NCBI GenBank assembly: GCA_015056045.1
Contig: SVGZ01000005.1
Coordinates: 1 to 64,000, forward strand
DNA: 64,000 nucleotides
Source of the DNA: Clostridiales bacterium
GTDB taxonomy: Bacteria > Bacillota > Clostridia > Christensenellales > Christensenellaceae
Reading direction: 5' to 3'
Shown: positions 5,604-15,021 of the stretch, in pieces
How the letters are laid out: the number at the start of each line of letters is the position of its first letter
How positions within the stretch are numbered: the stretch's first letter is position 1
Program-made: the position numbers and the translations under genes
The notes under the pieces: model-generated
Told to the model about the DNA's origin: nothing
Seen by the model: the letters and a program-made list of their open reading frames with translations, nothing else
The model's database searches: none

Positions 5604-7625
5604 TTATTTATAGCGTTCTCTGCGTTTCTTTTTCGGTTTATCCGGAGCAGTCGGTTTTCTGCCCAGTTTTTTCTCGCCTGTGAGCTCGGCAATGCGGTCG
5701 CGGAGTTTGGCGGCAACTTCAAATTCGAGTTCAGCCGCTGCGGCAAGCATCTGTTCCTCAAGGATCGCAATTTCGAGCTTAATATCCTTCGGTTCCGTCG
5801 TTTCTTCTTCCGCAGATTCGGCAAGATCGATCGGTGTGGTGACCTCTTTGACGATCGTTTTCGGTGTGATGCCGTGTTCTTCGTTATATTTCTGCTGCAA
5901 AGCACGGCGGCGTTCGGTTTCTTCAACGGCTTTTTTGATCGAGCCTGTCATCTTATCGGCATAGAGGATGACTCTGCCTTCAGCATTTCGGGCAGCTCTA
6001 CCGATCGTCTGTATCATGGAGGTTTCGTTGCGGAGGAAGCCCTCTTTATCGGCATCGAGAATGGCGACAAGCGAAACTTCGGGGATGTCCAGACCTTCAC
6101 GCAAAAGGTTGATGCCGACGAGAACATCAAATTCATGCATACGAAGCGCACGGACGATCTCGATTCGCTCCAATGTGTCGATATCGGAGTGCAGATAGCG
6201 GATGCGGATGCCCATTTCCGTATAATAATCGGTCAGGCGTTCGGCAAGCTTTTTCGTCAGCGTTGTGACGAGTACGCAATAGCCTTTTTCGACTTCTTTG
6301 CGGATCTCGGAGAGAAGATCATCGAGCTGATTTTCAACCGGTCGGATATCGATCTTCGGGTCAAGAAGCCCCGTTGGGCGAACAATCTGTTCAACGATAT
6401 TCTTCCCTGCGAGTTTTCTTTCATATTCAGCGGGCGTTGCGCTCGTGTAAATGACCTGGTTGATGCGGTCGTTGAATTCGCCGAAATTGAGCGGTCTGTT
6501 ATCAAATGCGGAAGGTAGCCTGAAACCGTATTTGACGAGCATTTCTTTTCTTGCACGGTCGCCGTTATACATCCCACGGACCTGCGGTAGTGTGACGTGC
6601 GATTCATCGACAAAGAGCAGATAATCCTTCGGGAAGAAGTCCATCAGGGTATAAGGCGCTTCGCCGGGCAATCTTCCGTCGAAATAACGGGAATAGTTTT
6701 CGATGCCGCTGCAGAAGCCGATCTCTTTGAGCATTTCCATATCATAGGTTGTGCGCTGAACGATGCGCTCCGCTTCGAGGAATTTTTCTTCTTTCTTAAA
6801 CTCTTCTGCGGCGATCATCATATCCCGCTTGATGTCGGAGATCTGTGTTAAAACTTTTTCACGCTCAACGGCATAATGCGTTGCCGGGAAGATCATGGCG
6901 AAATTCATGATGTTCTGCGCTTTGCCCGTTAAAACATCGATCTCGGAAATGCGGTCGATCTCGTCGCCGAAAAATTCAATGCGGATGGCTCGCTCTTGCT
7001 GATTCATCGGGAAAACTTCAACAATATCACCTCTTGCGCGGAAAGTACCTCTGCGGAAATCGATGTCGTTGCGTGTGAAGTTGATCGAAACGAGCTGATC
7101 CATAAGCTCATCTCTGTCCATCTGCATACCTTTGCGGATGCGGACGGTCGCATCACGGTAGCTTTCGGGCGAACCGATCGAGTAGATGCAGGAAACACTC
7201 GCAACAACGATGACGTCCCTGCGCTCTAAAAGGGCAGAAGTCGCACTGTGGCGGAGTCTGTCTATTTCATCATTAATAGAAGAATCTTTTTCGATATAAA
7301 GATCGCTTTTTTCGATGTATGCTTCGGGCTGATAATAATCATAATAGGAAACAAAGAACTCCACGGCATTGTGCGGGAAATATTCTTTGAATTCACCGCA
7401 GAGCTGTGCGGCAAGGGTCTTGTTATGCGCGAGGATGAGTGCAGGTCTTCCGGTCTGTGCGATGATGTTTGCCATGGTAAAGGTTTTCCCCGAACCGGTT
7501 ACGCCAAGTAAAACCTGATCCCGTTCACCTCGGTTGACGCCTTCAACAAGCTTTGCGATCGCCTGCGGTTGGTCACCGGTCGGCTTATACTTTGCGCTCA
7601 AGATGAATTTGTTTTCGTTTTCCAT
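5604..7625 (-). CDS. uvrB: Excinuclease ABC subunit B (UvrB)
   Basis: UvrB is the damage-verifying helicase-like subunit of nucleotide excision repair; it receives DNA from UvrA and recruits UvrC. The 673-residue protein has Walker A GVTGSGKT, the DNA-clamping beta-hairpin region ([10 protein letters not shown]), helicase motifs including QTIGRAARN, and a C-terminal UVR helical domain ([13 protein letters not shown]) that contacts UvrC. The tail is very basic. It is the first gene of the uvrB-uvrA operon, with a GGGAGGGC ribosome site and a near-consensus promoter about 40 bases upstream. Confidence 0.98.
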
Positions 7626-7662
7626 AAAAGCCCTCCCGGAAGATCTTTGTCACAGTAATTTA

Positions 7663-7691
7663 ATGATATATTGCGTGAGAAGTTATGTCAA
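7663..7691 (-). promoter_or_regulatory. Sigma-A type promoter for uvrBA
   Basis: On the minus strand TTGACA, a 17-base spacer and TATCAT lie 38 bases before the uvrB start. The -35 box is perfect consensus and the -10 box is one base from it. Confidence 0.8.
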
Positions 7692-7782
7692 TAAAAACAA
7701 TTAAAAATGAGAAGTTAGAATAAAAACTTGCGCAGTTGTGCAGGCTGCATGAGAATTTGCAAAAAGCATATCGTTTCCTTTG

Positions 7783-7811
7783 TTGAAATCGATGCGAAAA
7801 AGGGTTATGAT
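7783..7811 (+). promoter_or_regulatory. Promoter for the lipoprotein gene at 7847
   Basis: TTGAAA, a 17-base spacer and TATGAT, about 35 bases before the ATG. It diverges from the uvrBA promoter in the same 221-base intergenic region. Confidence 0.75.
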
Positions 7812-7846
7812 AGATAGGAATAGTATGATGATTTTGGAGTTAAGCG

Positions 7847-9034
7847 ATGCGTTTTAAGATAAAAAGGGCGTTTATATGGCTTTTGATCGCAGTATTTTTC
7901 CTTTGCGGCTGTGAGGCGGAGCTTGTCCGCGGTGAATTGGCAGAGGGAAGTGCATCCGTTGAAATTGCGGTGATCACGCCCGAACCCACAACGACAAAAG
8001 AACCCGAGCCAACGCCTGCGCCGACGATGACACCGATCGATTTTGACCCGAAGCAGACGCATATTTACCTCACACAGGGCAGCTATTATTTCCTTTCGGC
8101 AGAGGACAAATCTGCACTCACAAGAAACGGCGAGCTGCTGTCTTCTGCGGCATTTACCGTTGTCAATGAACAGAATTTCCGCCTTGAACAGGATGAAAAC
8201 GGCGAAAGCTGTGTGGTCTATTCCGCTGTGGATGGGCTTCGCCTGGGCATCAATTTAAAAGGCGAGGATATGCCCCGTGAAGGCATGGTTGCGACCTTTA
8301 TGGAAACGCTTTCCGAATCGAGAAGCCATTGGCTGGTTGAGAGAATGCCCGATGGAAGCTGCGTCATCAGAACAGCTGTTGAGCCGAACCTCGTTTTGAC
8401 AAAGAGCATCGACGAAGAAGGCAGCCCGCAGATCATCATTTCCCGATATACCGCTGCGGAAAGCCAGCATTGGGATTTCGGCGTGTTTGAAAAGAGCGAA
8501 TCGCTCAGCCTTGCCGAAACCAAACAGCTTTTTGAGAATATCACGGAAAACGAGATCCTTTCCTATATCAATAGGGAATATACCGATGCGGAAGAGGAAT
8601 TCGGCGGTCTTTTGGAACTTCGCGAAAGTGCAAAGCTTCCGACACTGTTCGTTTTTAAGGATGAACCGGCGCTTGCTTTCAGCTTCGATACCGAGCCGGA
8701 TCTTGGCTCCGATTACACCGTGGATGATTATATCGCCGGTTTTACCGTTCCTGCGGAAAAGGCGGAAGGCACTTTTGATACGGATGCCCCGATGACAGGC
8801 GTTTTCTATCTGCCGCTTTCGGCACTTGCCGATCTTGGTGCGGAAAACCTCTCTCTGCACAGCGGTCTTATCGGCCTGAAAAAGATGGATGGCGTTTTTG
8901 CCCATTATTATGAATTTGATCAGGGCGATTTCCGCATCAGCATCGCATGCACGGAAACAGGCCTTGTTGAACCCGATGCCTATATCAACGTCAGGCTGAT
9001 CACTTCCATTACGGAAGGCAATGCACTTATTTAA
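7847..9034 (+). CDS. Putative lipoprotein with Pro/Thr linker and ricin-lectin-like segment
   Basis: A 395-residue exported protein that I cannot assign to a characterised family. The N-terminus is a lipoprotein signal (hydrophobic stretch ending FFLCGC, Cys at about residue 22). A Pro/Thr/Glu linker follows at about residues 43-63, which would hold the rest away from the membrane. The next 130 residues contain SHWLVERMPDGSCVIRTA and ESQHWDFG, spaced and shaped like the QxW repeats of ricin-type beta-trefoil domains, so carbohydrate binding is possible (inference). The C-terminal half has no motif I know. A GGAG ribosome site sits 7 bases before the start. The gene is monocistronic, with its own promoter and a downstream hairpin. 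Confidence 0.8.
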   Translation: MRFKIKRAFIWLLIAVFFLCGCEAELVRGELAEGSASVEIAVITPEPTTTKEPEPTPAPTMTPIDFDPKQTHIYLTQGSYYFLSAEDKSALTRNGELLSSAAFTVVNEQNFRLEQDENGESCVVYSAVDGLRLGINLKGEDMPREGMVATFMETLSESRSHWLVERMPDGSCVIRTAVEPNLVLTKSIDEEGSPQIIISRYTAAESQHWDFGVFEKSESLSLAETKQLFENITENEILSYINREYTDAEEEFGGLLELRESAKLPTLFVFKDEPALAFSFDTEPDLGSDYTVDDYIAGFTVPAEKAEGTFDTDAPMTGVFYLPLSALADLGAENLSLHSGLIGLKKMDGVFAHYYEFDQGDFRISIACTETGLVEPDAYINVRLITSITEGNALI

Positions 9035-9089: not shown

Positions 9090-9215
9090 GGTCTAAATGC
9101 GAATATATATACAATATTAATAGAATAATAATTAAAATATGCGCATATACGGATGAAATTTTTATGGAAAATAGGGAATTTTTAGAAAAAAACTTAAAAT
9201 TTATGCAAATAGGGC

Positions 9216-9243
9216 TTGATTTTTTCCAAAGAAGCGGTATAAT
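9216..9243 (+). promoter_or_regulatory. Promoter for the amino acid ABC importer
   Basis: TTGATT, a 16-base spacer and a perfect TATAAT. The region upstream (9100-9215) is very A/T rich with runs of A, as often seen at strong promoters of highly expressed binding-protein genes. Confidence 0.7.
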
Positions 9244-13198: not shown

Positions 13199-13211
13199 TA
13201 ACGATATAAAG

Positions 13212-13242
13212 AGGCTTCACGATCGTGAGGCCTTTTTCTTTT
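13212..13242 (+). terminator. Terminator of the second MATE gene
   Basis: A near-perfect palindrome (AGGCTTCACG / CGTGAGGCCT, one G-U pair) followed by TTTTTCTTTT, 13 bases after the stop. It insulates the retron from upstream transcription. Confidence 0.9.
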
Positions 13243-13261: not shown

Positions 13262-13290
13262 TTGTAACACTAAAAAATCCCCTGTGTATA
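13262..13290 (+). promoter_or_regulatory. Promoter of the retron non-coding RNA
   Basis: TTGTAA, a 17-base spacer and TGTATA in the T/A-rich gap after the MATE terminator. The predicted transcription start, about 7 bases after the -10 box, falls at 13297-13299, exactly where the retron a1 segment begins. Confidence 0.65.
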
Positions 13291-13298
13291 TAGGTTTG

Positions 13299-13529
13299 AA
13301 TGAGGCAATAGATCACTGATCCTCCGAAAACGATCGATTCGGTTTGGACTACGGTAGCGATCCGCTGACCGTCTGTTTTGGAAAGCAGACACACTCGCTC
13401 TGCTCGGACTCATCCAACAGAATGTACTTTAAGCATCCTTTGTGAGGGAACTCCCGTTCCCTCAAGGATGCTTAGGTTCCGCGCTCGCGCGCACATTCTG
13501 TTGTCGCCATAAGGCTTGTATTGCCCATT
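13299..13529 (+). ncRNA. Retron msr-msd non-coding RNA
   Basis: This 231-base stretch has the layout of a retron template RNA. Segment a1 (AATGAGGCAATA, 13299-13310) pairs with a2 (TATTGCCCATT, 13519-13529) with one bulged A. The msr part holds three hairpins: CCGAA/TTCGG at 13324-13342, ACGGTAGCG/CGCTGACCGT at 13351-13372, and GTCTGTTT/AAAGCAGAC at 13371-13390 (it shares two bases with the previous one). The msd part is closed by an 11-bp perfect stem CAACAGAATGT (13415-13425) / ACATTCTGTTG (13493-13503). Inside is a long hairpin AAGCATCCTT-TGT-GAGGGAAC with GTTCCCTC-AAGGATGCTT (13431-13473): 18 bp, TGT bulge, TCCC loop. A small CGCG hairpin lies at 13480-13491. The first G after a1 (13311) is a candidate branch-point guanosine (inference). 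The RNA is followed directly by the RT gene. Confidence 0.85.
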
Positions 13530-13551
13530 AAAAAGAAAGGAGCGTCGGTAA

Positions 13552-14499
13552 ATGATTTTTTACGGACTGGCAAAACTGGAAAAAGCACTCGGTTACGAGG
13601 CAAAAACACTCTATGCGCTGAGCAACAATGTGAAAAAGCATTATCATCCGGCGCAGATCCCCAAAAAGAACGGCGAAATGCGCAATTTACTTGTGCCGGA
13701 TATGGCTTTGAAAAGCGTACAGAAAGCGATTGCCGAAAAAATACTGCAAAATTTTCCCGTTTCGCCGTATGCCTATGCCTATCGCAAGGGTTTTGGGATC
13801 AAGAAAAACGCAAGACAGCACACGGGCAAAGAAAAAGTCCTCAATCTCGACATCGAAAAATTCTTCGATCATATCCTGTATACGCAGGTCAAGGACTATG
13901 CTTTTCCCAAAGCTTTTTTTGCTGAAGATGTGCGGATTTTGCTTTCGATTCTTTGTTACGGCGAAAAGGGACTCCCGCAAGGTGCACCGAGTTCGCCTGC
14001 TATCACCAATTTGGTGATGCATGATTTTGATATGAAGATCGGCAAATGGTGCGAGAAACAGGGTATTGACTATTCCCGTTACTGCGATGACATGAGCTTT
14101 TCGGGCGATTTTGATGAAAAAGCAGTCATTTCCTTTGTGAAAAAAGAGCTTCGCCGGCTGAACATGAGCCTGAAACGGGAAAAGACCCGTGTTGCTAAAA
14201 AAGGCTCTCGACAAACGGTGACGGGTATTGTTGTCAATGAGATCCCTTCCGTTCCTTCGGAATACCGCAGGAAACTCCGGCAGGAGATCTATTACCTGAA
14301 AAAATTCGGCGCAGGACATCAGCTTCGCCACTATGGTTTGAAAATGACGGCAAAGGACTATTTTCTGAGCCTGCTCGGGCGAGTCAACTATGTTCTCCAT
14401 ATTTCGCCCGACAACTATGAAATGTGGCAGTACAGACGCTACCTCAAAAATATGCTCCGTCAAAGCCGCTTGCAGCCGAGACGTTCGGTTTTGCTTTAA
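13552..14499 (+). CDS. Retron-type reverse transcriptase
   Basis: The 315-residue enzyme would copy the msd part of the upstream RNA into multicopy single-stranded DNA joined by a 2'-5' bond to the msr. Motifs in order: NARQH at 86-90 (the retron NAxxH box), LNLDIEKFFD with the first catalytic Asp near 100, LPQGAPSSPAITN at 141-153, YCDD at 177-180 (most retrons have YADD), and VTGIVVNE from 223 (the retron VTG box). A thumb region with LLGRVNYVLHISP at about 275-286 is also typical of retron RTs. Length matches classical retron RTs. There is no maturase or HNH domain, so it is not a group II intron protein. A GAAAGGAG ribosome site lies 9 bases before the ATG. No effector domain is fused to it. 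Confidence 0.93.
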   Translation: MIFYGLAKLEKALGYEAKTLYALSNNVKKHYHPAQIPKKNGEMRNLLVPDMALKSVQKAIAEKILQNFPVSPYAYAYRKGFGIKKNARQHTGKEKVLNLDIEKFFDHILYTQVKDYAFPKAFFAEDVRILLSILCYGEKGLPQGAPSSPAITNLVMHDFDMKIGKWCEKQGIDYSRYCDDMSFSGDFDEKAVISFVKKELRRLNMSLKREKTRVAKKGSRQTVTGIVVNEIPSVPSEYRRKLRQEIYYLKKFGAGHQLRHYGLKMTAKDYFLSLLGRVNYVLHISPDNYEMWQYRRYLKNMLRQSRLQPRRSVLL

Positions 14500-14510: not shown

Positions 14511-14540
14511 TTGTCAAGCGCAAAATATTCATGATATAAT
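14511..14540 (+). promoter_or_regulatory. Promoter for the GNAT gene
   Basis: TTGTCA, an 18-base spacer and a perfect TATAAT just after the RT stop codon. The predicted start of transcription is about 14547. That rules out the ATG at 14542 as a start and points to the one at 14572. Confidence 0.75.
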
Positions 14541-14571
14541 CATGAAAAAGCGGAATTTGGTTGAGATAATC

Positions 14572-15021
14572 ATGGAAATACAGATCAGAAAAGTCGAAAA
14601 AGACTCGGAGCTTATGCAGCGGCTGCTTAATTTTGTGGAAAATTTTTCCTGGCACGAAGTGCGTGAGCATACCCTGCGGCAGATCAGAAATTGGGAATAT
14701 GAAGATTGGGAAAGCCCTTTTATTGCCATGGATGGCGAAAAAATCATCGGCATGGCAACGCTCATGAAGACGGATTATTACCCTTTACCCGAAATTTACC
14801 CGTGGGTCTCGACGATTTTTGTTGCAGAGGAATACCGCGGGCAAAGGATCAGCGGAAAACTGATCGATTTTGTCAATGCCTATGCAAAAGAATTGGGATT
14901 TAACAGGACATATATCCCGACGGAGCATATCGGTCTGTATGAAAAATTCGGCTATTCTTATCTGAAAGATATTGTAAATTACGGCGGCGATACAGACCGC
15001 TTATATAAAAAAGAGATATAA
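14572..15021 (+). CDS. GNAT family N-acetyltransferase
   Basis: A 149-residue protein of the GCN5-related acetyltransferase fold, which moves an acetyl group from acetyl-CoA to an amine. The acetyl-CoA loop is seen as VAEEYRGQRISGKLIDFVNAYAKE, followed by the typical late GLYEKFGYSY segment. The substrate is unknown. The open frame begins at 14542, but that ATG overlaps the promoter; ATG 14572 is the likely start, with a weak GGTTGAG site before it. It follows the retron RT by 72 bases but has its own promoter and terminator. A role as retron partner is therefore possible but not indicated. Confidence 0.85.
   Translation: MEIQIRKVEKDSELMQRLLNFVENFSWHEVREHTLRQIRNWEYEDWESPFIAMDGEKIIGMATLMKTDYYPLPEIYPWVSTIFVAEEYRGQRISGKLIDFVNAYAKELGFNRTYIPTEHIGLYEKFGYSYLKDIVNYGGDTDRLYKKEI

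Follow-up and report, generated by a model that had tools for sequence, protein, structure and literature searches.

In most retrons studied so far, an effector is linked to the cassette and the whole acts as a toxin-antitoxin-like defence system. The retron Ec107 (Retron-Eco5) of Escherichia coli, whose insertion site we take to be the pyrE-ttk (slmA) interval, is the experimentally known relative of the locus reported here. It takes the place of a palindromic 34 bp intergenic sequence, its reverse transcriptase (RT) has YCDD, and its expression is raised by phosphate starvation and in stationary phase; for retrons in general, NAxxH (region X) and VTG (region Y) are known RT motifs and the position of the priming guanosine is known as well (PMC6868368). 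A query over the MG1655 slmA-pyrE junction was at least 80% covered in 5016 of the 5394 genomes with a match and split in the remainder; among complete E. coli genomes the junction is split in up to ~7%. Two split-junction genomes hold an RT gene between slmA and pyrE, and in a retron carrier bases 1593-1626 (34 bp) of the MG1655 stretch are swapped for 1300 bp. Upstream of this RT lies GGCAATA-G ... GCGAGTC ... G-TATTGCC, and 107 nt counted back from a2, the 3' pairing arm, leads to a point between the second msr stem-loop (SL2) and the msd, as expected for an msDNA with its start directly before a2. From the site, the replaced length, the RT and this fit, rather than from the deposited Ec107 record, we identified the E. 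coli slmA-pyrE locus as Ec107. A comparison of L096 with L097 shows the lost 34 bp to be a palindrome that resembles a terminator, flanked by genes that converge on it.

Here, we report a retron cassette in a Clostridiales bacterium (Christensenellaceae), found in the first 64,000 nucleotides of contig SVGZ01000005.1; this whole stretch is called the window, and the cassette lies on its forward strand as an RNA region followed by an RT gene, 1.2 kb at 13299-14499. We consider it, with a probability of about 0.9, to be a bacterial chromosomal retron of the Ec107 family, functional and stand-alone. Its identity as a retron is supported by the RT family, the tree, a conserved covarying RNA and the known relative Ec107 with the same core: the a1 and a2 arms read GGCAATA-G ... 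TATTGCC as in E. coli, both RNAs have the msr hairpins SL1 and SL2, the RT follows directly downstream of the RNA, both sites are intergenic and chromosomal, and neither has a linked effector. In contrast to Retron-Eco5, the window retron has an unrelated msd sequence with a longer, near-perfect inner hairpin, an msr ~20 nt longer with a variant SL2 loop, and another host phylum and site. The earlier note on this DNA had called the cassette apparently undescribed, which holds for this copy and its msd, both new to us and not in Rfam 15 (no retron match in the window at the gathering threshold or with E up to 1), but not for the family, which is described as Ec107/Retron-Eco5 and as the PADLOC RT_Ec107-like type.

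The RT gene (13552-14499, +) is an intact open reading frame of 315 aa, preceded by a ribosome-binding site AAAGGAG (13536-13542, +) 9 nt upstream of its ATG. It carries NARQH, LPQGAPSSP, RYCDD and VTG, so that the retron NAxxH and VTG boxes read earlier from the DNA were both found. PADLOC RT_Ec107-like is its top model (410.7 bits, E 9e-124) and RT_III-A the runner-up (336.2 bits); a group II model reached only 5.7e-23, and the NCBIfam St85 retron model scored 220.7, slightly under its cut-off of 235. Among solved chains, the retron RTs Ec67, Ec86, Ec78 and others come closest. By PADLOC, tree and solved chains the protein falls among the retron RTs, apart from group II, DGR and Abi RTs; a position among these others had been named beforehand as one that would speak against a retron. 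Its identity to the E. coli slmA-pyrE RT is 43% over 294 aa, with YCDD in both. Please note that a structure prediction built from six sequences had a mean pLDDT of 61.9, too poor for use. In a class-wide sample of 391 genomes, matches above 370 bits occurred in 10, among them the genome of the window, and the next match scored 234.

A 46-row maximum-likelihood tree of RTs (IQ-TREE) places the window RT and E. coli Ec107 together inside an Ec107 clade of 23 rows (support 97/92), in agreement with the PADLOC assignment and the 43% identity. L068 and L069, from the same order, are the nearest rows to the window, with identity up to 52%; the rows vary in composition and some branches are long, and the finer branching order is not firm. 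The RT is under purifying selection in the relatives, in at least three lineages: dN/dS values were 0.075/0.321 for the pair G309/G420, 0.021/0.139 for two E. coli, 0.024/0.234 and 0.024/0.226 for Bacilli pairs, and 0.254/0.705 for a distant pair, i.e., ratios of ~0.10-0.36, and because every pair of relatives compared was below 1, we conclude that the RT is kept by selection in these lineages. The RT_Ec107-like loci of Bacillota (e.g. L068, L069, L055-L058, L113, L114) share with the window the RT clade, the order of the cassette and the bases that flank a1 and a2, and their neighbours are diverse and unrelated. The Ec107-like RTs of L059, L060, L062 and L073 have an N-terminal extension like that of type III-A RTs; the window RT is without it.

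Transcription of the window RNA would start at ~13299, downstream of a putative weak promoter picked by eye (TTGTAA 13262-13267, 19-nt spacer, TATATA 13287-13292, +), which is absent from the list of a consensus promoter scan; the relatives have TATAAT-like boxes at a comparable position. The 5' arm a1 (13299-13310, +; AATG, a bulged A, GGCAATA) pairs with the 3' arm a2 (13519-13529, +; TATTGCCCATT) in a helix of 11 bp plus the one bulged A, which encloses msr and msd. In 5000 dinucleotide shuffles, an a1/a2 helix of such quality that also obeyed the family rule (a1 ends in A and is followed by G; a2 begins with T and is preceded by G) arose once, and 38 times if the rule was waived, while the seven-pair core alone is not striking (reached by 261 of 2000 flank shuffles). 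The region 13280-13545 folds at -98.1 kcal/mol by RNAfold (z -5.7), a value that none of 200 shuffles equalled. At the inner end of a1 lies G13311 (+), the probable priming (branch) guanosine, since a G follows a1 invariantly in 20 loci and this is the retron priming position. The msr is predicted to form three hairpins: a weak one that includes the priming G (13311-13321, +; GATC-ACT-GATC, RNAfold) and is apparently specific to the window, the stem-loop SL1 (13323-13348, +; RNAfold), with a hairpin at the same place in relatives, and SL2 (13352-13371, +), a variant of the family signature hairpin (GCGATCCGC vs GCGAKTCGY). Another candidate for SL2, at 13336-13340, matched the GATTC loop exactly and lay about as far from a1 as is usual, and was dropped because its stem consists of weak G-U/A-U pairs only. 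The msd template is placed at 13415-13518 (+), with a DNA start opposite G13518 that is deduced from the rule seen across the family and from how 107 nt fit onto Ec107; its closing stem (13415-13425/13493-13503) is a perfect 11 bp, and its inner hairpin (13428-13476) has 21 pairs and a 3-nt bulge. The pairing ends, the three msr hairpins and the 11-bp closing stem are thus as the earlier note had drawn them, but the inner hairpin is not the 18-bp one it gave, and its estimate of 80-100 bases for the single-stranded DNA falls short of the ~104 nt or slightly more predicted here.

The conservation of this RNA was evaluated in an alignment of 20 loci, including one type III-A locus (L070) and L067, which lies just outside the clade. 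The last a1 base is A, the base after a1 is G and the first a2 base is T in all 20. Over the 18 pairs of a1/a2 and SL2, 90.8% of the cells are paired, and in 16 of the pairs both partners vary; the score for covariation reaches 0.729, compared with 0.248 for shuffled alignments (0 of 500 as high) and at most 0.233 with the partners slid. The a1/a2 arms were picked partly by complementarity, which inflates the helix score; for SL2 the loop alone served as the centre of the alignment, and 9 of its 10 pairs have changes on both sides. The a1/a2 pairing expected of a retron is conserved in the relatives and covaries. The msd sequences of the relatives do not align with one another.

The window msr itself is divergent. 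Its a1 and SL2 are ~20 nt further apart than those of close relatives, and the SL2 loop lies 49 nt from a1, against 26-46 nt in the relatives; these keep GCGAKTCGY in SL2 (the GCGAGTCGC form), a signature derived here and not a published criterion, whereas the window has GCGATCCGC, with a bulged stem and the loop GAUCC (GATCC) in place of the conserved GAKUC (GAKTC). A covariance model (R1) of 21 relatives, with the window left out, had no match in the window or its genome; with filters off its best hit was 7.2 bits, on the correct strand and at the correct place. The same model does detect an unseen relative, L065, with 34 bits. Because the window RNA is atypical of the family in its SL2 and msr length and escapes the held-out model, it could be partly degenerate, and the retron as a whole could be decaying, i.e., an open RT frame beside a drifted msr that yields little or no msDNA. 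The extra hairpin and the weak promoter also point this way. Against this, a1/a2 and the msd stem are intact, the RT has all motifs and no stop, the RNA folds far beyond its shuffles, and an RT that co-evolved with its msr would give the same picture. We consider decay unlikely and prefer the functional Ec107-family retron.

If the latter holds, it is tentatively conceivable that the Ec107 clade is broadly distributed and selectively maintained and works without a linked effector, through a host factor or the msDNA itself, and that in the member carried by the window the RT and an altered recognition hairpin have evolved together, so that it would not cross-react with its relatives.

The effector question was approached through the neighbourhood. 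Clustering of the genes around related loci gave no shared neighbour beyond the synteny of close relatives; the neighbours are unrelated housekeeping genes, and because no gene is conserved beside the cassette we regard the family as stand-alone. Around the window retron lie the core genes uvrA, uvrB, an amino-acid transporter, MATE, ispDF and valS, and the weak generic PADLOC matches in the neighbourhood are to an ABC ATPase only. Like Ec107-like retrons in general, the window copy has no linked effector, i.e., no conserved neighbour and no defence gene at the neighbours tested. The cassette had been called complete, and promoter, RNA and RT are indeed present; a linked effector gene is not part of it, the same as in Ec107. 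The flanking genes lie on separate contigs in G001, a genome of the same genus used for an empty-site comparison, and a close-match scan of viral contigs gave no relative.

A type III-A retron that recently lost its PRTase/winged-helix effector in the window lineage seems very improbable to us. Type III-A retrons (L070-L072) are the nearest sister RTs, III-A models rank second for the window RT, and the III-A locus L070 carries the family SL2 motif, in the form of a shared GCGAGTCG hairpin. These retrons have PRTase and winged-helix effectors, and their loci bear the PRTase and a small gene upstream; the window has none of these beside its RT; among related loci the PRTase occurs in L070-L072 only, and it was not found in the window's genome (~80% complete; a search run without a positive control). 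The III-A loci with PRTase fall outside the Ec107 clade, and the tree sets the window deep inside this effector-less clade, not with them. A tripartite retron in which the effector is the neighbouring GNAT acetyltransferase (14542-15021, +), which starts 43 bp past the RT on the same strand, or the upstream MATE transporter, is scarcely credible, as a near-perfect promoter (TTGTCA/TATAAT, 14511-14540; promoter scan) serves GNAT separately, MATE is closed by a terminator-like hairpin of its own (13208-13237), neither recurs beside the RT in related loci, and PADLOC detects a defence gene in neither.

As a stand-alone Ec107-family retron, the locus may work by analogy to studied retrons (PMC6868368, PMC8989520). 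Briefly, the RNA from 13299 to ~13530 would fold, the RT would bind the msr and prime from the 2'-OH of G13311, and it would copy the msd from G13518 toward ~13415 or slightly past; the host RNase H would then strip the template, as in studied retrons. The predicted msDNA would be ~104-115 nt, linked 2'-5' to the msr and starting CAAGCCTTATGG, and the end product would be an RT-msDNA particle with no linked toxin. A minimum of 104 nt, instead of 80-100, is predicted because the family DNA start directly precedes a2, and the length is given as a range because the 107-nt product of Ec107 passes the base of the folded stem by about a dozen bases. By inference only, the most likely role would be in defence or stress, with the effector provided by the host or by a gene at another place. 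The Ec107 clade lacks a linked effector, but conservation of its RNA and RT extends over Bacillota and E. coli, and all pairs compared had a dN/dS under 1, which makes the job of an effector-less retron a concrete question. The window copy diverges from the other members and has an msd hairpin that is long and stable, and it may be of use as a producer of single-stranded DNA.

Two further observations concern the relatives. L003 and L004 hold retrons that hardly differ (94% DNA identity over 1178 bp) but have different left flanks, perhaps because a mobile unit ends there or because of a rearrangement; their right flanks are homologous, with the same gene carrying a deletion in L004. In L065 (G840:C32), the Ec107-like RNA (9184-9235, minus) has a very long a1/a2 and lies ~665 nt from the RT (7554-8519, minus), and between the two is a 130-aa signal-peptide-like open reading frame (8632-9024, minus), a possible cargo or effector.
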